Shown: in pieces, positions 6,041 through 63,791 of the stretch
Numbering within the stretch: the stretch's first letter is position 1
Layout of the letters: each line of letters opens with the position of its first letter
Assembly (NCBI GenBank): GCA_039819165.1
Contig: JBCBSM010000001.1
Span: forward strand, 806,001 to 870,000
From: Planctomycetota bacterium
Lineage (GTDB): Bacteria > Planctomycetota > Phycisphaerae > Phycisphaerales > UBA1924
Reading direction: 5' to 3'
Length of the DNA: 64,000 nt
Notes under the pieces: generated by a model
Database searches by the model: none
What the model was told of the DNA's origin: nothing
The model's input: the letters and a program-made list of their open reading frames with translations, nothing else
Translations under genes and position numbers: made by a program

Positions 6041-7435
6041 CTAGCGGCCACCGCCCGAACGGCCGCGGGCGCGATCACGCTCCAGCGACTGCTCCAGGCG
6101 ATGCATCAGCCTCTCGACCATGGCCTCCATGCGGTCCTCGAAGCGCTCGATGGCGTCCTCGAAGCGATCCTCGAAGTCCTCCAGGCGATCCTCGAGGGCC
6201 TCGAGGCGGTCCTCCATCGACTCGGAGTCGAAGCCCTGCCACTCCTGGGGCGGCAGCCGGAAGGTGAAGCCCTGGCCCGGCTGGTGCTCGGCCCAGAAGC
6301 GGGCGCCATCGCCCTCGAGCTCGCGGAGCCGCGCCAGCGCGTCGTTCTGCATGCCGCGGAGTTCCTCGGCGTCGAAGGTGAACGCCTGCTGCTGGTTCTT
6401 CCGCAGCGCCTCGATGGCCCGCCGCATCGCGTGCTGGGCGTGCTCGTGGGCCTCGTGGGCCTCGTGGGCGGCCTCGCCCTGCAGCCGCGCGATCATCTCG
6501 GCGGCCTGCTTCAGCGCGGCTTCGGCCTGCTCGGCGTGATCCATGGCCCGGCCTTGGCCCTGGCCCTGCGCGCCCCGCCACGGGTTGGCGTCCTGCGCAC
6601 GCGGCGCCGCCGGGGGTGCGGGCGGACGCGCGCCGACGCCCCCGCCGGCGGTCGGAGCACGGCCCAGCGCGGTCGCGTCGAAGGCCTCCAGCTTCACGTC
6701 AAAGGTCTTGGCCTGCCCCTTGCGGATGACCTTGACCTTGACCTTCTTGCCCGGTTCGGCCTTCCGGAGCACCACGCGGATGTCGTCGGCCGAGCGCGGC
6801 TCGGCGTGGTCGCCGAAGCCCACGATGATGTCCTTGGCTTTCAGCCCGGCCTTGGCGGCGGGCAGCCCGTCGATCACCCGCTCCAGCAGCACGGCCCTGT
6901 CGCCGTCCAGCCCCAGGTGCTCCAGCAGCACGTTGTCGGGCTCGCCCATCACGACGCCAAACATCACGCGGGGCTGGTCAGTGGCGTCCTGGACCTGCGC
7001 GACGCCGACGCGGACGGCCGGCGCGGGCCGTGCAAGCTGCACGATCTCCAGCTCGGGAGCCACGCCACCCAGCAGCGTCACGGGGGCCGAGGGCGCCCGC
7101 GGCACGCGGAAGGTCACCGCGCGGCCGGTGTCGTCGAGAACCACGATGGTGTCGCCCTTCCGCTCGATGCGGCTGGCGTCGACCTTCTTGCCGTTGATCT
7201 CCGCCGTCAGCTTGCCGTTGCGCTCCCGCACGGTCACGGCGTGGCCGTCCTGCGAGCGGGTCATCACGATCTCGCGGACCGACTGGGTCGGGGCGGTCTC
7301 GGCGACCACCTCGTAGCGGTCCGCGGTCGGGGCGGCGTCCTGCGGGGTGAGCGCGATCGCCGCCGCCGGCAGACCGGCGATGGCGGCAAGAGTGAGAGCG
7401 GTGCGCGAGAATGCCCTGGTACGAAAACGAGTCAT
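6041..7435 (-). CDS. Exported PDZ-domain protein with coiled-coil tail
   Basis: A 464-residue protein with an N-terminal signal peptide (about 1-28). Residues about 160-250 form a PDZ domain: FGVVMGE, the G-L-PAAKAGLKAKDIIVGFG core and KVIRKGQ/DVKLEAF strands, as in HtrA- and S1C-associated peptide-binding domains. No protease domain is present. The last 65 residues are a repetitive charged coiled coil of ED-R-[LF]-E units, ending in a short basic Gly-rich tail. The ATG at 7435 follows AGGAGG at 8 bases. It lies 209 bases downstream, in the same direction, of the ECF sigma/anti-sigma pair, so it could be a regulon target or envelope-stress sensor; that is inference. Confidence 0.8.
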   Translation of the reverse strand: MTRFRTRAFSRTALTLAAIAGLPAAAIALTPQDAAPTADRYEVVAETAPTQSVREIVMTRSQDGHAVTVRERNGKLTAEINGKKVDASRIERKGDTIVVLDDTGRAVTFRVPRAPSAPVTLLGGVAPELEIVQLARPAPAVRVGVAQVQDATDQPRVMFGVVMGEPDNVLLEHLGLDGDRAVLLERVIDGLPAAKAGLKAKDIIVGFGDHAEPRSADDIRVVLRKAEPGKKVKVKVIRKGQAKTFDVKLEAFDATALGRAPTAGGGVGARPPAPPAAPRAQDANPWRGAQGQGQGRAMDHAEQAEAALKQAAEMIARLQGEAAHEAHEAHEHAQHAMRRAIEALRKNQQQAFTFDAEELRGMQNDALARLRELEGDGARFWAEHQPGQGFTFRLPPQEWQGFDSESMEDRLEALEDRLEDFEDRFEDAIERFEDRMEAMVERLMHRLEQSLERDRARGRSGGGR

Positions 7436-7644
7436 GGATCGGTCCTCCTGCGGTCAGAATCCGATTGGCCGGTGCATCCCAAAGCGAATGCGTGGATGCG
7501 GGCCGGTGCATGATGGACACGCGGCGCGGGCAGCTCGTCGCGCACGTGGAATGCGGACGCATCGCCCGCCCGTTGGCTACTGGAACGCTCCCGGCAGACG
7601 GCCGAGAAGCGGTATCGCGATGTGGCACCCCCGCGCCACATCGC

Positions 7645-8547
7645 CTACATCGGCCCCGACGTCGGCCGGCTGAGCCGCATGGGCACCGGCCGCGGCGTGT
7701 TGGTGTCGTCGGGCTTCACCTGATACAGGTCGGCCTCGTCGATCACAGTCCGCTCGACGAATCGCCTGAGGTAGACCAGTTCGACGCGGCCATCGGGCAG
7801 CCGGCGGGCCTGCAGCAGCATCCGCTCGGGCAGTTCGCTGGACTCGCCGGCGCTCGCCAGCATGAACGGCTCGCCGGGCGAGACCATGCCGGGGCGGGAC
7901 CCGCCCGCGTCGCCGGCCATCTCGCGACGCAACTCGGCGGCCGCCTGCGCCCGGCGCTGCTCGAGTCCCTCCCGCACCAGCGTCGTCGGCACCTGCTCGA
8001 GGGGACCGACGAAGTAGTCCGTTTCGTCGAAGGACGGCGCTCGGGCGATGTCGATCGACTCCTCACCAACCAGCTGCCCCGCTGACGCTTGCTGGCCAAC
8101 CCAATCCGCGGGAGCCTGCGGCGGAGCGACCGGCGGCGGATCGGCCGGCGGTGGATCGGCCGCGACCATCGTGCCCTCGCGATCGGGCGCACCGCCCAGG
8201 CCGAAGGCCTGCGGCAGCATCCACGCGGCGACGACCGCCGCCGCCGCCCAGCCGACCCAGCCCGCCGCACGAACGACCGCGACCGGCCGCAGCCGGCCCG
8301 CGGGCAGCTGGTCGAGGGGCACCTCCACGCCGTCGGCCACCGAGATGGCATCGCCGACGATACGGGCGAGTTCCGCCTGGGCGTGCTGCGCCTCGAACAG
8401 CTCCCGCCACAGAGATGGATCGTCCTCGGCCATCGCACGCAGCAGGGCCCAGTCCTGGGCGCTCGCCGCGTCATCGACGACCCGTGTGATGAGCAGGTCG
8501 CGATCGGGCGGGCTGGGGCTATCGCTTCGGGGCTCCGTGTTGCTCAT
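7645..8547 (-). CDS. Probable membrane anti-sigma factor
   Basis: A 300-residue single-pass membrane protein. It has a roughly 85-residue acidic cytoplasmic N-terminal region, one transmembrane helix (about 87-112, W-V-G-W-AAAAVVAAWML) and a Pro-rich extracytoplasmic part. Its ATG overlaps the TGA of the upstream ECF sigma gene (ATGA at 8544-8547), the usual arrangement for an anti-sigma factor. The zinc anti-sigma HxxxCxxC motif is absent, so any inhibitory domain is of another kind. The assignment rests on topology and coupling rather than a recognised domain. Confidence 0.65.
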   Translation of the reverse strand: MSNTEPRSDSPSPPDRDLLITRVVDDAASAQDWALLRAMAEDDPSLWRELFEAQHAQAELARIVGDAISVADGVEVPLDQLPAGRLRPVAVVRAAGWVGWAAAAVVAAWMLPQAFGLGGAPDREGTMVAADPPPADPPPVAPPQAPADWVGQQASAGQLVGEESIDIARAPSFDETDYFVGPLEQVPTTLVREGLEQRRAQAAAELRREMAGDAGGSRPGMVSPGEPFMLASAGESSELPERMLLQARRLPDGRVELVYLRRFVERTVIDEADLYQVKPDDTNTPRPVPMRLSRPTSGPM

Positions 8548-56710: not shown

Positions 56711-58153
56711 TCAGCAGCCGGCGTCGAACGCGTTCTGGAACGCGAGGAAGTCGAACAGCGTGAGGCTGCCGTCGCCATCGAAGTCGGCGGCGAGGTCGCC
56801 CGCGTCGAACAGGTTCTGGAAGCCCAGGAAGTCGAAGAGCGTCAGCAGGCAATCGCCGTCGATGTCGGGACGGCAGAAGTCCAGCGTGAAGGCGTGCAAT
56901 GCGCCGACGCCGGGATCGCCGGCGATGGGCGTGCCGGCATCGTCGGCGGGCGCTCCGACGAAGAGCCGAAGGCCGGTGGGTCCTTCGTACAACGAGGCCG
57001 ACGAGCCGAAGCGGGCGAACGGGACCGGATCCGTCGGGCGGATGATCGCGGTCTGGATCGGGGCGGCCGGATCGGTGATGTCGAAGGTGTAGGCCGTGCC
57101 CGCCAGGCTGGTCTCGCCCGAGAGCGCGCCGGCGAGCAGCACCTCGGCCGTAAGCGAGACCGAAACACCGAAGTCGCCGGGCGTAAACGTGTCGGTCGCG
57201 GTCACGCGGGCGAGCTGGACGGGCGCGCTGCGATTGCTCACGTCGAAGAGGTAGACCGAGCCGTCGCTGCCGTCCGGGTTCGCCCCGGTCGCGGCGATGG
57301 CGGCCAGAGCAACATCGCCCTCGATGAGCAGGTCGACGGCGGCGCCGAAGTTGTCTCCCATCGCCCCGTCGTCGGGCAGGATCTTGGCGATCTCCTCGCC
57401 CGTCTCGATGTTGAAGAGGTAGGCCGAGCCCGAACTGGACCCGACGTCGTCGTTGAGCGGCGCGCCGATCAGCGCATAGGCGACCTCGCCCGCGGTCACG
57501 CCCCCGCCGTCGATGGCCACCGAGCTGCCGAAGCGATCGACGGCCGCAGCGTCGGAGGCGGTCAGCTTGAATCGCTCGACGGCGTCGGTGCCGACGACCT
57601 CGAAGACGTACACGGCTCCGGTAGCGCTCGACTTGTCTGGCGCCGCCACGACGGCGCGGTCGAAGTCGACGTCCAGGGCGTTGCCGAAGAGATCCAGCCC
57701 GCGGCCGTCGCTGGCGGTGAGCTTGTCGAGCTGCGTGCCGGTGGATCGCAGGAAGAGGTAGGCCGCGCCGGCCGCGGGGCCGAGTTCGCCGTCGAAGGGC
57801 GCCCCAACGAGTGCCAAGGCGTTGTCGGCGGCGACCTCGCTCCCGAATTGCTGGTTCGCGATGGCATCGTCCGGCAACAGCTCGAAGAGCAGCTGGGGAA
57901 CGGCGGTGTTCAGCGTGTACAGGTACGCCCGACCCGCGCCGCCCCCGGCCTCGTCGCCCGCATCCGGTGCCCCCACGATGCCGAAGCCCGCGGCCGCCGC
58001 GTCGAACGAGGACCCGAAGTTGTCGCCGTCGAGCCCGGTGGTGGGCGAGACCTTGGCGTCCTCGCTGCCGCACTGGGTCTGGGCGTGCGAGGCGGCGGCG
58101 GCCACCAGGATGGCGGCGATCGACGATGCGGGCGTGCGCAGGCTGCGGCTCAT
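56711..58153 (-). CDS. Exported FG-GAP-like beta-propeller protein with dockerin module
   Basis: A 480-residue protein with a signal peptide (about 1-24) and six or seven repeats of the form DxFGxxV...GDVALAGAP...G-A-YLF, like FG-GAP propellers. Examples are DNFGSSFDAAAAGFGIVGAP and DRFGSSVAIDGGG. The end has two dockerin-type repeats (DIDGDCLLTLFDFLGFQ and DFDGDGSLTLFDFLAFQ). No enzyme motif is visible. It probably binds a surface or matrix component. Confidence 0.83.
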   Translation of the reverse strand: MSRSLRTPASSIAAILVAAAASHAQTQCGSEDAKVSPTTGLDGDNFGSSFDAAAAGFGIVGAPDAGDEAGGGAGRAYLYTLNTAVPQLLFELLPDDAIANQQFGSEVAADNALALVGAPFDGELGPAAGAAYLFLRSTGTQLDKLTASDGRGLDLFGNALDVDFDRAVVAAPDKSSATGAVYVFEVVGTDAVERFKLTASDAAAVDRFGSSVAIDGGGVTAGEVAYALIGAPLNDDVGSSSGSAYLFNIETGEEIAKILPDDGAMGDNFGAAVDLLIEGDVALAAIAATGANPDGSDGSVYLFDVSNRSAPVQLARVTATDTFTPGDFGVSVSLTAEVLLAGALSGETSLAGTAYTFDITDPAAPIQTAIIRPTDPVPFARFGSSASLYEGPTGLRLFVGAPADDAGTPIAGDPGVGALHAFTLDFCRPDIDGDCLLTLFDFLGFQNLFDAGDLAADFDGDGSLTLFDFLAFQNAFDAGC

Positions 58154-58367: not shown

Positions 58368-60311
58368 ATGGAGGAAGGCTTGGCCGCGAAGAAGACCACG
58401 AGCACGTCGCGGGCGACCGCCGAGACCATGGCGGGCCGGCAGCGGGAGATCTCGGTCAGCGAGTTCTTCGCCAAGAACCGCCACCTGCTGGGCTTCGACA
58501 ATCCCCGCAAGGCGTTGCTGACCACGGTCAAGGAGGCCGTGGACAACGCGCTGGACGCCTGCGAGGAGGCCGGCATCCTGCCCGACATCGAGGTCCGGAT
58601 CGAGGAGTTGTCCGCCCCACCCTCGGCGAGCAAGCCCGGGCGATACGCCGTCACGATCACCGACAACGGCCCGGGCATCGTGCGGAAGCAGGTGGAGAAC
58701 ATCTTCGGCAAGCTGCTGTACGGCAGCAAGTTCCACCGCATGAAGATGAGCCGGGGCCAGCAGGGCATCGGCATCTCGGCGGCCGGCATGTATGGCCTGA
58801 TGACCACGGGCAAGCCCATGGCCATCACCACCAGGCCCAAGAAGACCAGGCCGGCCCACCACCTCGAGCTGGCGATGGACACCACCAAGAACAAGCCCGA
58901 GGTGACCATCGACGTCGAGACCGACGACTTCCCGGCCACCTCCAGCGGCACGGGCACGTCGGTGCGGATCGAGCTGGAGGCCCGCTACCAGCGGGGCAAG
59001 GCCAGCGTCGAGGCCTACCTCGAGCAGACGGCCATCGCCAACCCGCACGCGCGGATCACCTTCGTGCCCCCGGACAAGGCGAGCGACGGGCCCGCGCTGG
59101 ATGCCGAGGACTCCGAACTCGAGCGCACGACGGAGCTGGCCGACCGCATCATCTATCCTCGCACCGTCGAGGAACTGCCGCCCGAGACCGAGGAGATCAA
59201 GCCGCACCCCTACGGCGTGGAGCTGGGCAACTTCCTCAGGATGCTCAAGGCGACCAAGGAGAAGCAACTCGCGGGCTTCTTCAAGCACGAATTCTGCCGG
59301 GTGCCGCCCGCGATCGTCAAGGAGGTCTCGAGCAAGGCCGGCACCAAGAAGAAGACCGTCACGGGCCAGACGTGGATCAAGAACGTCGACCACGATTCGG
59401 CCGAGCGGCTGTACCGGGCGCTCCAGGACGCCAAGCTCCGCAGCCCCCCCACCGACTGCCTCGCGCCCATCGGCGTGCGACAGATGCTGTCGGGGCTGCT
59501 CAAGGGCGTGAAGGCCGAGTTCTACGCGGCGAGCACACGAGACCCGGCGGTCTACCGCGGCAATCCGTTCCAGATCGAGGCGGCGATCGCCTTCGGCGGC
59601 GACCTGCCGGGCGACGAACCCGCCCGCGTGATCCGCTTCGCCAACCGCGTGCCGCTGCTCTACCAGCAGAGCGCGTGCTGCTCGTTCAAGGCGGTCGTCG
59701 AGGCCAGCTGGAAGAACTACGGGCTGAGCCAGCCCCGCGGCGCCCTGCCCGTCGGCCCGATCGTGATCATGATCCACATGGCCAGCGTGTGGGTGCCGTT
59801 CACGTCGGAGTCGAAGGAAGCGATCGCCGACTACGACGAGATCCGCAAGGAGATGAAGCTGGCGCTCCAGGAGTGCGGCCGCAAGCTCGGTACGTACCTC
59901 CGCCGCCGCCAGAAGATGCGCCGCGAGAGCCAGCGTCGCGACATCTTCGGCCGCTACATCGCCGAGATCGCGCGCTCGACGGCGGCCCTGACGGGCGAGG
60001 ATGAGGCGAAGCTCCTGGAAGCCCTCCAACGCCAGGCCCAGAAGCGGACGGCGATCGCCGACGCCGAGCTCGACGAGGACGGCAACTTCGTCAGGAAAGA
60101 GCGCAAGGAGCCGGGGCTGGACGACGGCGTGCTGATCGTGGACAACGGCGTCGCGGCCGAGCCCGCGAGCAAAGAGCACGCGGATAACGGGCACGCCAAT
60201 GGCACGATCGAGGGGAAGGAAGGCCAGCCCGGCCTCTTCGTGAACGAGGGGAGCGAGCCCGTGCGCCATACCAAGAAGACCGTTCGTCGCAACACGGTGG
60301 CAAAGAAGTAG
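58368..60311 (+). CDS. top6B: DNA topoisomerase VI subunit B
   Basis: A 647-residue type IIB topoisomerase ATPase subunit. The Bergerat (GHKL) fold is visible: N box TVKEAVDNALDACEEAG (residues 53-69), DNGPGI (99-104) and the G2 loop SRGQQGIGISAAGMYG (128-143). A helix-two-turn-helix region and the transducer domain follow. The transducer includes RFANRVPLLYQQSACC and the switch-lysine loop VPFTSESKEAIADYDEI. The C-terminal 100 residues are charged and disordered. ATG at 58368 is used; a TTG at 58380 has GGAGG 5 bases upstream and could be the true start. top6A follows after 3 bases. Confidence 0.92.
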   Translation: MEEGLAAKKTTSTSRATAETMAGRQREISVSEFFAKNRHLLGFDNPRKALLTTVKEAVDNALDACEEAGILPDIEVRIEELSAPPSASKPGRYAVTITDNGPGIVRKQVENIFGKLLYGSKFHRMKMSRGQQGIGISAAGMYGLMTTGKPMAITTRPKKTRPAHHLELAMDTTKNKPEVTIDVETDDFPATSSGTGTSVRIELEARYQRGKASVEAYLEQTAIANPHARITFVPPDKASDGPALDAEDSELERTTELADRIIYPRTVEELPPETEEIKPHPYGVELGNFLRMLKATKEKQLAGFFKHEFCRVPPAIVKEVSSKAGTKKKTVTGQTWIKNVDHDSAERLYRALQDAKLRSPPTDCLAPIGVRQMLSGLLKGVKAEFYAASTRDPAVYRGNPFQIEAAIAFGGDLPGDEPARVIRFANRVPLLYQQSACCSFKAVVEASWKNYGLSQPRGALPVGPIVIMIHMASVWVPFTSESKEAIADYDEIRKEMKLALQECGRKLGTYLRRRQKMRRESQRRDIFGRYIAEIARSTAALTGEDEAKLLEALQRQAQKRTAIADAELDEDGNFVRKERKEPGLDDGVLIVDNGVAAEPASKEHADNGHANGTIEGKEGQPGLFVNEGSEPVRHTKKTVRRNTVAKK

Positions 60312-60314
60312 GCC

Positions 60315-61523
60315 ATGGCCAAGAAGAAGACTACTCGAAAAAAGACCACCAAGAAGGTCCGCAAGGACGCCGCCTCCACCCCCGCGCCCGCGAGGCCCAA
60401 GTCCGAGGCGGCCGCCGCTCGGGACGAGAAGACGCAGAAGGCCCTCAAGGGGCTGGCCGGCGGCATCGCGAAGTCGGCGCTCGCGGGCCGGGAGCCGACC
60501 TTCGACGTGCCGACGCGATCGGCGTCCAACACCCGCTGGAACAAGTCGCGCGGCATCCTGCAGATGGGCAGCGCCGCCAGCACGCGGCAGATCTTCAACC
60601 TGGGCCAGGCCCGCAAGTTCATGCAGAGCCTTCGGCACGCCCACGGCATCAGCCGCCTCATCGACCAGAACAAGACGACCAGCCTCCGCGGCATGTTCTA
60701 CACCGGGCTGGGCGACGTGCACGACGCCGCCGGCTCGAAGACCCGCGAGAAGACCTTCGACGACCAGACCGAGAGCGATGCGATCCTCGAGGATCTGGAG
60801 GTCACGCTGGGTGCGCTCCGAGAAGAGCTGCACATCTTCGCCAAGAAGCGCGGCGCCATGGTCGGCAACATCACGCTCAACGACAGTGGCGACACCATCG
60901 ACTGCCGCAAGATGGGCAGCGGCGGCTATGCCATCCCGAGCATCTGCGAGCCCGACCGGCTGCGCTTCGAGAAGTGCGAAGCGGACTTCGTGCTGCACGT
61001 CGAGAAGGACACCGTCTGGCAGCGCTTCAACGAGGACCGCTTCTGGGATACGCACAACTGCATCCTGACCGAGGGCAGCGGCCAGCCGCCGCGGGGTGTG
61101 CGGCGGCTGCTACACCGGCTGAACAAGGAACTCGGGCTGCCGATCATCTGCCTGCTCGATTGCGACCCGTGGGGGCACTACATCTACAGCGTCATCAAGC
61201 AGGGCTCGATCAGCCTCGCCTTCGAGAGCGAGCGGCTGGCGATCCCCGACGCCAAGTTCCTGGGCATCCGCTCGGACGATTTCGAGCGCTGCAACCTGAG
61301 TGATAGCGTGCAGATCAGCCTGAACGACCGCGACATCACGCGGGCCAAGCAGATCGCCGAGTACCCGTGGTTCAAGGGTCACCGCGGCTGGCAGAAGGAG
61401 ATCGCGAGGCTGCTCAAGAACGGCTTCAAGCTCGAGGTCGAGGCCCTGATCAACATCGACATCAGCTACGTCACCGAGACCTATGTGCCGGAGCGGTTGG
61501 CGGCGGAGGATTGGCTGAGCTGA
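60315..61523 (+). CDS. top6A: DNA topoisomerase VI subunit A (Spo11-like)
   Basis: A 402-residue type IIB topoisomerase cleavage subunit. The first 60 residues are Lys/Ala-rich and probably disordered. The 5Y-CAP domain has the catalytic Tyr129 in TTSLRGMFYTG. The Toprim fold has its Glu230 in LHVEKD and the metal-binding DxD (Asp282, Asp284) in LLDCDPWGHYIY. The C-terminal region (HRGWQKEIARLLKNGFKLEVEA) is also family-typical. With subunit B it should form an A2B2 enzyme that passes DNA through a 2-base-staggered double-strand break. Confidence 0.92.
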   Translation: MAKKKTTRKKTTKKVRKDAASTPAPARPKSEAAAARDEKTQKALKGLAGGIAKSALAGREPTFDVPTRSASNTRWNKSRGILQMGSAASTRQIFNLGQARKFMQSLRHAHGISRLIDQNKTTSLRGMFYTGLGDVHDAAGSKTREKTFDDQTESDAILEDLEVTLGALREELHIFAKKRGAMVGNITLNDSGDTIDCRKMGSGGYAIPSICEPDRLRFEKCEADFVLHVEKDTVWQRFNEDRFWDTHNCILTEGSGQPPRGVRRLLHRLNKELGLPIICLLDCDPWGHYIYSVIKQGSISLAFESERLAIPDAKFLGIRSDDFERCNLSDSVQISLNDRDITRAKQIAEYPWFKGHRGWQKEIARLLKNGFKLEVEALINIDISYVTETYVPERLAAEDWLS

Positions 61524-61537
61524 GTCCGGGAGCATCC

Positions 61538-61780
61538 ATGGCCATTGAGTACGAGCCACAGACCAAGGCCGATCTTATCGAGGCCCTGCGCGCCTACGTC
61601 CTGGACAACCTCGACCGCGACATGGGCGATCTGCAGGCCGGGACGCTCTTCGAGTTTGTCGATGGCCTGGTGGGCGCTGCGGCGTACAACCGGGGCGTCG
61701 CCGACGCACAGGCGTGGTTGACGACACGGATCTTGGACATGCCCGCCGACCTGCACGAGAGCGTCGACTACGGCTCCTGA
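61538..61780 (+). CDS. DUF2164-family protein
   Basis: An 80-residue protein that fits the DUF2164 family: RAYVLDNLDRDMGDLQAG, FEFVDGLVGAAAYNRGVADAQ and a final acidic helix. The family pattern is YF..ELD..IG.L.A...L.F....G..IYNQGV.DA. Function is unknown. It starts 14 bases after top6A with GGGAG 5 bases before its ATG, so it probably shares the transcript. Confidence 0.8.
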   Translation: MAIEYEPQTKADLIEALRAYVLDNLDRDMGDLQAGTLFEFVDGLVGAAAYNRGVADAQAWLTTRILDMPADLHESVDYGS

Positions 61781-61821
61781 ATGGCCCGATCCCCGCGATG
61801 GCCTGCGCCTACGAACCCACC

Positions 61822-62724
61822 ATGCCCCATGCCACGCACCGCGTCGCCGTCGTCCAGCATGCCCCAGCCGCCTTCGATCGCGACGCTACGCTGGCTATCG
61901 TCGCCGACCGCACGGCCGAAGCCGCCGCTAAGGAGGCCGAACTGGTTCTCTTTCCCGAGGCGTTCGTCCCGGCGTACCCACGGGGCCTCGGGTTCGGCAT
62001 GGTCGTCGGCAGCCGCACGGACGCAGGCAGGGAACTCTGGCGGCTCTACAGCGAGCAGGCCGTCGAGGTGCCTTCGCCCGCAAGCGAGCGGCTCGGGGCG
62101 ATCGCCCGCGAGCACGCGGTCCACCTCGCCATCGGCGTGGTCGAACTCGATGCCGTCACGCGCGGCACCCTGTACTGCACGCTGCTGGTCTTCGGCCCCG
62201 ACGGAAGACTGCTCCACCACCACCGCAAGCTCAAGCCCACGGCGGCCGAGCGGCTGGTGTGGGGCGAGGGCGATGGCTCGAGCCTGCATTCGATCGACAC
62301 CGACCTCGGCCGCGTCGGCGGGCTGATCTGCTGGGAGAACTACATGCCCCGCGCCAGGGCGGCGATCTACGAGTCGGGCTGCGAGGTGTACCTCGCGCCG
62401 ACGGCGGACCACCGCGAGGCCTGGCAGCACACGATGCGGCACGTCGCGCTCGAGGGCCGGTGCTTCGTGCTGGGGTGCAACCAGGTCATGGATGCGTCCG
62501 TGTATCCGCCGCACGTGCGGGCGCTGGAGCCCGACCTCGACGAAGCCCGCGCCGTCAGCCGCGGCGGTAGCGTGATCGTGGCGCCGACGGGCGAGGTGCT
62601 GGCAGGGCCGCTCTGGGATGAGCCCGGCATGCTTGTCGCCGACCTCGACATGGATCTGCTGCGGCAGACGCGGCTCGACTTCGACGTCGCGGGGCATTAC
62701 GCGCGGGCGGACGTGTTCCGCTAG
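61822..62724 (+). CDS. Nitrilase-family hydrolase
   Basis: A 300-residue carbon-nitrogen hydrolase with the Glu-Lys-Cys triad: Glu46 in LVLFPEAF, Lys136 in HHHRKLKPT and Cys170 in GGLICWENYMP. The ERLVWGEGDGS segment marks the true nitrilase branch, which converts nitriles to carboxylic acids, rather than amidases. The substrate is unknown. I chose the ATG at 61822; ATG at 61798 would add eight residues. Neither has a clear Shine-Dalgarno site. Its stop overlaps the convergent dehydrogenase gene by 4 bases. Confidence 0.88.
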   Translation: MPHATHRVAVVQHAPAAFDRDATLAIVADRTAEAAAKEAELVLFPEAFVPAYPRGLGFGMVVGSRTDAGRELWRLYSEQAVEVPSPASERLGAIAREHAVHLAIGVVELDAVTRGTLYCTLLVFGPDGRLLHHHRKLKPTAAERLVWGEGDGSSLHSIDTDLGRVGGLICWENYMPRARAAIYESGCEVYLAPTADHREAWQHTMRHVALEGRCFVLGCNQVMDASVYPPHVRALEPDLDEARAVSRGGSVIVAPTGEVLAGPLWDEPGMLVADLDMDLLRQTRLDFDVAGHYARADVFR

Positions 62725-63791
62725 TCCCGCCAGTCGAGGACGATCTTGCCGAACTGCTCGCCCGCCTCGAGGCGTTCATACGCCGCGCGGCCGTCCGCCG
62801 CCGGAAAGACCTTGTCGACGACGGCGGCCAGCTTGCCCGCTCGAAAGAGCGCGGCAACCTCGCGGAACTCGGCGGGCGTGCCCATGGTCGAACCCAGCAC
62901 GCGGAGCTGGTTCCAGAAGATGCGGGCCAGGTCGGTCGTGGCGTCGGGACCCGTGGTGCAGCCCGGCGTGACGTAGGCCCCGCCGCGGGCGAGGCTCTTG
63001 ATGCAGCTCAGGTGCGTGGCCTTGCCGCTGCTGTCGACGGCCATGTCGACGCCGCGCTTGCTGGTCCACGCGCGGACGTCGCGGGACCAGTCCTCGCCCG
63101 TGTCCGGCACGGCGTGCTCCGCCCCCATCGCCAGCGCTCTGTCGAGCTTCCACTGGTGGCGGCTCGTCACGCACACCCGGCAGCCGTGGTGCAGCGCGAT
63201 CTGGAGGGCGCTCGTGGCGACGCCGCCGCCGATGCCGGTGATCAGCACGCTCTGGCCGCTGCTAAGTTGGCCCTTGGTGACCATCATGGACCACGCCGTC
63301 AGCGCCGTCAGGCCGAAGGCGGCGGCCCCGATGGGATCGATGTCGCTCGACGCGTCGGGACCCAGGTCCGCCAGGTGCGTCGCGGGGGCGTGGAAGAACT
63401 GGCGGTGCATGCCGTTGTGGTGCTCGCCGATGAGCTCGTAGTCGGCGGCGAGCGTCGAGGCGGGCGGATCGCCCGGCCGTTCACGGGGCGGCACCTCGAC
63501 GGCGGCGTTGACGATTACGCGGCGGCCGACCCAGGCGGGATCAACGCCGTCGCCGACCTCCTCGACGACGGCGCACGCATCGCACCCACTGACCCGCGGC
63601 CACGACAGATCCACGCCCGGGATGCCCCGGCCCACCCACAGGTCCATGTGGTTGAGTGCGCTGCACAGCGTGCGGAGCTTGGCGTGGCCGGGCGGCGTGG
63701 GCCCGAGATCGGGCCAGTCGGCCTGGAAGTCGATGCCGGGCGCGACGGCCTCGCCCCGGCCGGCTTGCTTGGTGCAGACGAGTGCGTGCAT
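62721..63791 (-). CDS. Medium-chain dehydrogenase/quinone-oxidoreductase-like protein
   Basis: A 356-residue zinc-type alcohol-dehydrogenase-fold protein. The N-terminal GroES-like domain shows LCSALNHMDLWVGRG and SGCDACAVVEEVG. The Rossmann domain has the nucleotide-binding motif GIGGGVATSALQIA. The usual structural-zinc Cys cluster is not evident, and the catalytic zinc ligands are incomplete, so it may act like a quinone oxidoreductase or enoyl reductase. It converges on the nitrilase gene and could handle related metabolites. Confidence 0.82.
   Translation of the reverse strand: MHALVCTKQAGRGEAVAPGIDFQADWPDLGPTPPGHAKLRTLCSALNHMDLWVGRGIPGVDLSWPRVSGCDACAVVEEVGDGVDPAWVGRRVIVNAAVEVPPRERPGDPPASTLAADYELIGEHHNGMHRQFFHAPATHLADLGPDASSDIDPIGAAAFGLTALTAWSMMVTKGQLSSGQSVLITGIGGGVATSALQIALHHGCRVCVTSRHQWKLDRALAMGAEHAVPDTGEDWSRDVRAWTSKRGVDMAVDSSGKATHLSCIKSLARGGAYVTPGCTTGPDATTDLARIFWNQLRVLGSTMGTPAEFREVAALFRAGKLAAVVDKVFPAADGRAAYERLEAGEQFGKIVLDWRD

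Follow-up and report, generated by a model that had tools for sequence, protein, structure and literature searches.

The 64,000-nucleotide window analysed here (positions 806,001 to 870,000 of contig JBCBSM010000001.1, assembly GCA_039819165.1, from a planctomycete of the order Phycisphaerales) contains two adjacent genes, top6B and top6A, whose predicted products are complete subunits B and A of topoisomerase VI (topo VI), an enzyme familiar mainly from archaea, with all catalytic motifs present. We propose that this enzyme unlinks replicated chromosomes in its host, as topoisomerase IV (topo IV) does in sister lineages, and assign this reading a probability of about 0.7.

top6B (58368..60311, + strand) encodes 647 amino acids comprising a GHKL ATPase, a transducer and, beyond about residue 545, a charged C-terminal tail. 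top6A (60315..61523, + strand) encodes 402 amino acids with a Lys/Arg-rich N-terminus, a winged-helix and a Toprim domain. They are separate open reading frames of the window, 3 bases apart, and lie exactly where a first-pass annotation, made from the letters alone, had placed them. Subunit B matches PF09239 (4.8e-58), HATPase_c and NCBIfam PRK04184 (637 bits, cut-off 274); subunit A matches PF21180 (1.9e-58), PF04406 (4.5e-15) and PF20768 in Pfam, and PRK04342.1-2 in NCBIfam (490 bits, cut-off 465). Archaeal likeness among solved structures differs by subunit: B is nearer to M. mazei (2q2e_B, 1.8e-139, 470 bits) than to S. shibatae (4.1e-83; it also aligns to 2zbk_B), whereas A is nearer to S. 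shibatae (2zbk_A, 1.1e-72, with 40% identity and the same catalytic residues) than to M. mazei (4.7e-41). The GHKL boxes of B are intact (N-box EAVDNALDA at 56, G1 DNGPGI at 99, G2 GQQGIGIS at 130 and the G3 region GTGTS), as is the switch-lysine loop SESKEA at 480. In a residue alignment with three archaeal structures, Tyr129, Glu230, Asp282 and Asp284 of A are invariant with S. shibatae, M. mazei and M. jannaschii. We take these residues, and the GHKL and switch positions of B, to be the functional sites known from the M. jannaschii and S. shibatae enzymes. Profiles, structure matches, motifs and alignment thus bear out the earlier call of a topo VI in B–A order with intact key residues; neither the catalytic Tyr nor the GHKL residues, whose misalignment had been named as a risk, are out of register. 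The Lys-rich N-terminus of A (K+R make up 30% of residues 1–60) and the mixed-charge tail of B, listed by the first-pass annotation as extras, are both present. Similar extensions of A and B are found in the order-mates compared, so they are not peculiar to the window genes. The suspicion of an assembly contaminant, raised by the same annotation, is ruled out by the length of the contig (2.6 Mb), by flanks shared with same-genus genomes and by composition (GC 0.675 and 0.653, and third-position GC, GC3, 0.95 and 0.93, for B and A respectively; 0.698 GC for the window).

Judged by these sequences, the two products would form an A2B2 topo VI of the ordinary type. ATP binding and dimerization of subunit B would trap the duplex to be transported; subunit A would cut the other duplex via Tyr129 and the Toprim metal site, leaving 2-nt overhangs, and the break would be resealed once the trapped duplex had been passed. 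A preference for DNA crossings would make the enzyme a decatenase and so supply the topo IV function that is absent in a gyrase-only background. We infer both enzymatic activity and decatenation as the main role. The M. mazei enzyme is described as a preferential decatenase (PMC8837201) and is stated, as unpublished data, to complement a parE-ts E. coli (Allen & Maxwell, PMC11302465).

The background is indeed of this kind. The genome of the window encodes one PF00521 protein (open frame of 940 amino acids) with two matches to the pattern that we took as the GyrA box, and one PF00204 protein; it is therefore a gyrase genome without topo IV in the assembly, which answers a question that the first-pass annotation had asked of it. 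Topo IV is a type IIA enzyme whose cleavage subunit is not homologous to that of topo VI. In f3, a sister family of the same order, all seven of seven genomes have two PF00521 and two PF00204 proteins and no Top6A: these are genomes with gyrase plus topo IV. The ParC–ParE enzyme of f3 has the same probable role as the one proposed for the window pair, decatenation, and it is topo IV of this kind that avoids Top6A in the phylum sample. Use of the GyrA box to separate GyrA from ParC follows published practice (PMC11302465).

The phylum sample was a draw of 392 genomes, with a high-quality subset of 217, in which a second PF00521 protein was taken as a second type IIA A subunit (ParC). At least one PF00521 protein was found in 384 genomes and Top6A in 187, a lower bound, as one genome counted as negative (G364, with a single PF00521 protein) was missed by the Toprim model despite an N-terminal match of 191 residues. 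In the class, 36 of 61 sampled genomes yielded Top6B. With Top6A in 187 of 392 genomes, topo VI is a widespread lineage trait in the phylum, and the earlier description 'sporadic in bacteria' is too weak here. Genomes with Top6A had one PF00521 protein in 164 cases, two or more in 18 and none in five; for genomes lacking Top6A the respective numbers were 95, 107 and three. This avoidance is strong (Fisher odds ratio 10.3, p 1.4e-20), also in the high-quality genomes (same four cells 109/10/36/62, odds ratio 18.8, p 3e-18), and it persists after stratification by family (p 1e-4 for all genomes, 0.003 for high quality). In three families no sampled genome has both or neither: f37 (18 with Top6A only, three with two PF00521 only), f72 (seven and one) and f20 (three and two). 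Ten hand-picked Top6A-negative genomes with two PF00521 proteins had the GyrA box in one copy and none in the other (10/10); in one of them, G302, the box-less copy is short and its Tyr motif is absent too. In some families most sampled members appear to have gyrase alone, Top6A being absent and the type IIA A subunit single (f29, 16/16; f39, 14/16; f49, 18/23).

Topo VI might instead be accessory or dispensable, acting for example in positive-supercoil relief or repair, with gyrase alone segregating the chromosomes and the avoidance of topo IV reflecting the shared ancestry of a few lineages. We consider this unlikely, but several observations lend it weight and count against a strict substitution of topo IV by topo VI. 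There are the 95 genomes (36 of the 217) in which a single type IIA A subunit occurs and Top6A has no match, and the 18 with Top6A and two or more PF00521 proteins, a class in which some doubles may be split genes. Family f63 shows the opposite trend, with six genomes that have both. Members of a family are not independent, and many contrasts amount to few events; the three f37 genomes with topo IV belong to one genus. According to the published survey, too, a genome with topo VI need not lack topo IV (PMC11302465). Closest to the window is G172, a genome of the same genus (98% complete) without Top6A, without Top6B and with a single PF00521 protein. No N interrupts its contig next to the conserved right flank, and a thiolase-like frame, read from translation, lies with further genes on the far side; only short pieces match the left flank. 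The absence of top6BA is thus probably real and likely a loss and, with one PF00521 protein and neither topo VI subunit on an unbroken contig, gyrase alone seems to suffice in G172. Because this close relative lacks both topo VI and topo IV, and many other genomes seemingly have gyrase alone, topo VI is not indispensable. Against an accessory role stand the association within families and the clean division of f20, f37 and f72 between the two enzymes; we prefer the unlinking of replicated chromosomes by topo VI.

We consider it highly improbable that the locus serves defence or DNA breakage through a system akin to topo VI (JetD/Wadjet, Spo11-like or topo VIII) that performs no strand passage. 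The Toprim domain of A does match JetD1, but marginally (E 8e-4 and 16 bits for the whole protein, no single stretch passing), and a JetD/Wadjet nuclease was rejected on this score; the full-length Top6A and Top6B profiles, in contrast, exceed their cut-offs. In topo VIII, A and B are not on separate polypeptides, whereas here they are separate genes. The partner of Spo11, TopoVIB-like, has no intact GHKL site (PMC11302465), while the N, G1, G2 and G3 boxes and the switch lysine of the window B are all in place, and this candidate was likewise dismissed. B and the small gene downstream of A (DUF2164, see below) have no PADLOC match. In PHROGs, A has no match, and the ATPase of B has a weak one to a family of phage topoisomerase II subunits (4.5e-7). 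No Top6A was found among 50,697 phage records, and matches in mobile elements were confined to three haloarchaeal plasmids and, in three pattern-based scans, one IMG/VR contig; a phage or mobile origin was discarded on these results.

The histories of the two subunits differ. Trees were calculated from 73 A rows and 71 B rows, covering 38 of 80 named loci (the best 80 of 554 relatives when ranked by similarity to subunit A of S. shibatae), 12 of the 20 loci from the order, and further loci hand-picked for breadth. L220, for which no B was found, is absent from the B tree, and L215 and L226 were left out of the trees. The named records nearest to the window in the A and B trees are Phycisphaerales, which makes its source a planctomycete. 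Each grouping was taken from one tree and then tested on the other, and f72 is called Pirellulaceae because it groups with a Blastopirellula-titled record. Planctomycete Top6A forms two distant groups: type I, which includes the window and is placed with DPANN archaea, Thermoproteota and other bacteria, and type II, which groups with M. jannaschii (100/96). The best match per genome to the window's A is sharply two-peaked (28 at ≥371 bits and 38 at ≤201, in 66 of the 187 Top6A genomes), and a tree that places every bacterial A row in one clade is rejected (152.6 log-likelihood units lower, p 8e-6). We do not present this split as new, since two clusters of bacterial A (near Methanococcales and near DPANN, respectively) are already published, as are two clusters of bacterial B, with at least two transfers read for each subunit (PMC11302465). 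Archaeal A and B trees are reported to track archaeal taxonomy globally (PMC9348778).

The window's A belongs to a group of 12 rows (the window, nine from families f1, f4 and f5, and two named records) that is joined with three Pirellulaceae-type rows into a clade of 15 (100/97); f2 and one f1 member, G278, have their A in a different clade. In the B tree, 16 rows (13 from the order and three named records) form one clade (100/99) and the Pirellulaceae-type rows lie far off. Holding those 16 rows together in the A tree is rejected (139.1 lower, approximately unbiased (AU) test p 1e-6), as is forcing the A-type grouping on the B tree (45.6 lower, AU p 0.001). In a tree of GyrA the order is a clade (14 rows, 100/99), and the window group plus f72 is rejected (p 7.6e-5). 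As the A tree departs from those of B and GyrA, A has probably also moved horizontally. Most simply read, these sequences suggest an exchange of A, unaccompanied by B, between the window lineage and Pirellulaceae, in either direction, and we infer such an exchange as the cause of the conflict. The first-pass annotation had proposed a phylogeny of both subunits and left horizontal transfer or a lineage trait as alternatives. Both apply: the distribution of Top6A in the phylum speaks for the trait and the conflict of the A tree for a probable transfer of A, which groups with Pirellulaceae, B remaining with its own order. G278 shares A and B alike with row L166, and transfer of the whole pair may thus also occur. 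For type II, B falls with bacteria. A tree that unites it with M. mazei and two haloarchaea is rejected (p 0.008), but one that leaves it outside the clade of type I bacterial B is not (p 0.64, in a set without M. jannaschii B), so that an A/B conflict for type II is no more than suggestive. The conflict in the window lineage is independent of the type II question. Whether bacterial topo VI as a whole is a mosaic seems to us an even call; in such a mosaic A could be replaced alone between distant lineages while B stays, the A of the window lineage having come from or gone to Pirellulaceae and an M. jannaschii-like A having been combined in other planctomycetes with a bacterial-type B.

The main rival to an exchange of A alone is hidden paralogy, with two old type I A genes and differential loss, or an error in the trees, which we regard as possible but somewhat doubtful. 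Two Top6A copies do occur in some genomes (G054, and G016, where one has a stop). Long branches also occur, and a warning from the tree program concerned their meeting at the deep split among the A rows. That split, however, is a different branch from the one in conflict, and no second full type I copy was found in the 66 of 187 Top6A genomes searched with the window's A, second matches being type II-like or short. The AU tests reject congruence in both directions and GyrA backs the order as a clade.

Second copies were seen in two forms. G054 and G016 each have two near full-length type II-like Top6A matches, the stop in the one G016 copy being internal. Three f53 genomes have a second, short and diverged Top6A-like match to the Toprim half (65–114 bits) alongside a type I Top6A (G171:C2:2430147-2430740, G076:C97:16385-17086 and G141:C80:52065-52562). 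L181, from archaeon SI047_bin88, has an A that pairs with that of a planctomycete (L220, genome G272; 99/94) and a B placed within the bacterial clade, which may reflect transfer or a mislabelled bin. L208, titled Candidatus Kuenenia, and L191 and L206, titled Singulisphaera, have Top6A at 557–595 bits to the window's, like order-mates; L208 adjoins f4 in both the A and B trees, and the three titles may be wrong.

We take Anaerohalosphaeraceae, Sedimentisphaeraceae, Lacipirellulaceae, Pirellulaceae and Thermoguttaceae to be planctomycete families. All five are listed with topo VI and without topo IV in the survey by Allen & Maxwell (2024; PMC11302465), which comprises 17 bacterial sequences, so that topo VI in bacteria, including planctomycetes, is already known. 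The strings 'planctomycet' and 'phycisphaer' are absent from its main text, the planctomycete families appearing in the legend to its Figure 6. The enzymes concerned (Pirellula staleyi, Lacipirellula parvula, Sedimentisphaera cyanobacteriorum and others) likewise have two subunits and intact motifs and occur with gyrase and without topo IV (PMC11302465); compared with these, the window A groups with Pirellulaceae and the window B does not. As far as the literature searched goes, the scale of topo IV/VI avoidance in one phylum, the absence within a genus and the conflict between A and B are new; in the open-licence literature searched we recognized no paper on an exchange of topo IV and topo VI in planctomycetes or of a single topo VI subunit. 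Close relatives, even within one order or genus, have gyrase and topo VI, gyrase and topo IV, or apparently gyrase alone, and the substitution hypothesis is therefore directly testable by complementation. If A can be exchanged alone, the compatibility of A and B is testable with natural pairs; if the mosaic is true, then together with the avoidance of topo IV it would turn the phylum into a natural experiment on the exchange of entire decatenases as well as of their components.

The order of the genes is widely kept, with B upstream of A on the same strand and within 700 bases (≤700) at 74 of the 80 named loci and 16 of the 20 same-order loci. Of four same-genus genomes sampled, three (G002, G034 and G095) have top6BA between the same flanks as the window, an FG-GAP repeat protein of secreted type on the left (56711..58152, − strand, start approximate as the listed open frame extends to 58957; PF14312, 4.7e-48) and a zinc-type alcohol dehydrogenase on the right (62721..63791, − strand; PF00107, 2.2e-24). 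By blastn, the left flank (∼56714–58115) matches L063 and L065, lies within a longer match to L064 and gives short partial pieces in L133; the dehydrogenase flank is kept across the genus, including the genome without top6BA (matches to L063–L065 and L133). The distance from the stop of B to the open frame of A is 353–642 bases in the three relatives, compared with 3 bases to the start of A in the window. Dissimilar extra sequence separates the genes in L063 (from G002, 6951–7593) and L064 (from G034, 7255–7646), the inter-gene frame of G002 being HD-domain-like by eye; the gap between top6B and top6A seems to tolerate insertions.

The DUF2164 gene (61538..61780, + strand, 80 amino acids; PF09932, 1.2e-17) starts 14 bases past A and is followed by a carbon-nitrogen hydrolase frame (61714..62724, + strand, an open frame with the true start inside; PF00795, 9.6e-53). 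The region holding both (61524–62727) has no blastn match in L063–L065, the three same-genus top6BA regions. DUF2164 was found in one of 23 same-order genomes, that of the window, and at none of 114 topo VI loci in a single-sequence search; it is therefore a private neighbour and no conserved partner of top6BA. The first-pass annotation had proposed a top6B–top6A–DUF2164 operon and suggested looking for it in relatives: top6BA is kept in three of four same-genus genomes and DUF2164 is not, and the three genes were rejected as a conserved unit among the genomes examined. It is their adjacency that suggests a common transcript of DUF2164 and top6BA. A promoter and terminator scan gave one promoter-like and four terminator-like sites, all on the minus strand and none fitting a top6BA operon. 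Further to the left, between 50450 and 56876, a DNA stretch of ∼150 bases recurs at the ends of several secreted-type genes, and also in relatives; it encodes FDFLxFQNxF...DxDGDG, which is dockerin/EF-hand-like by eye.

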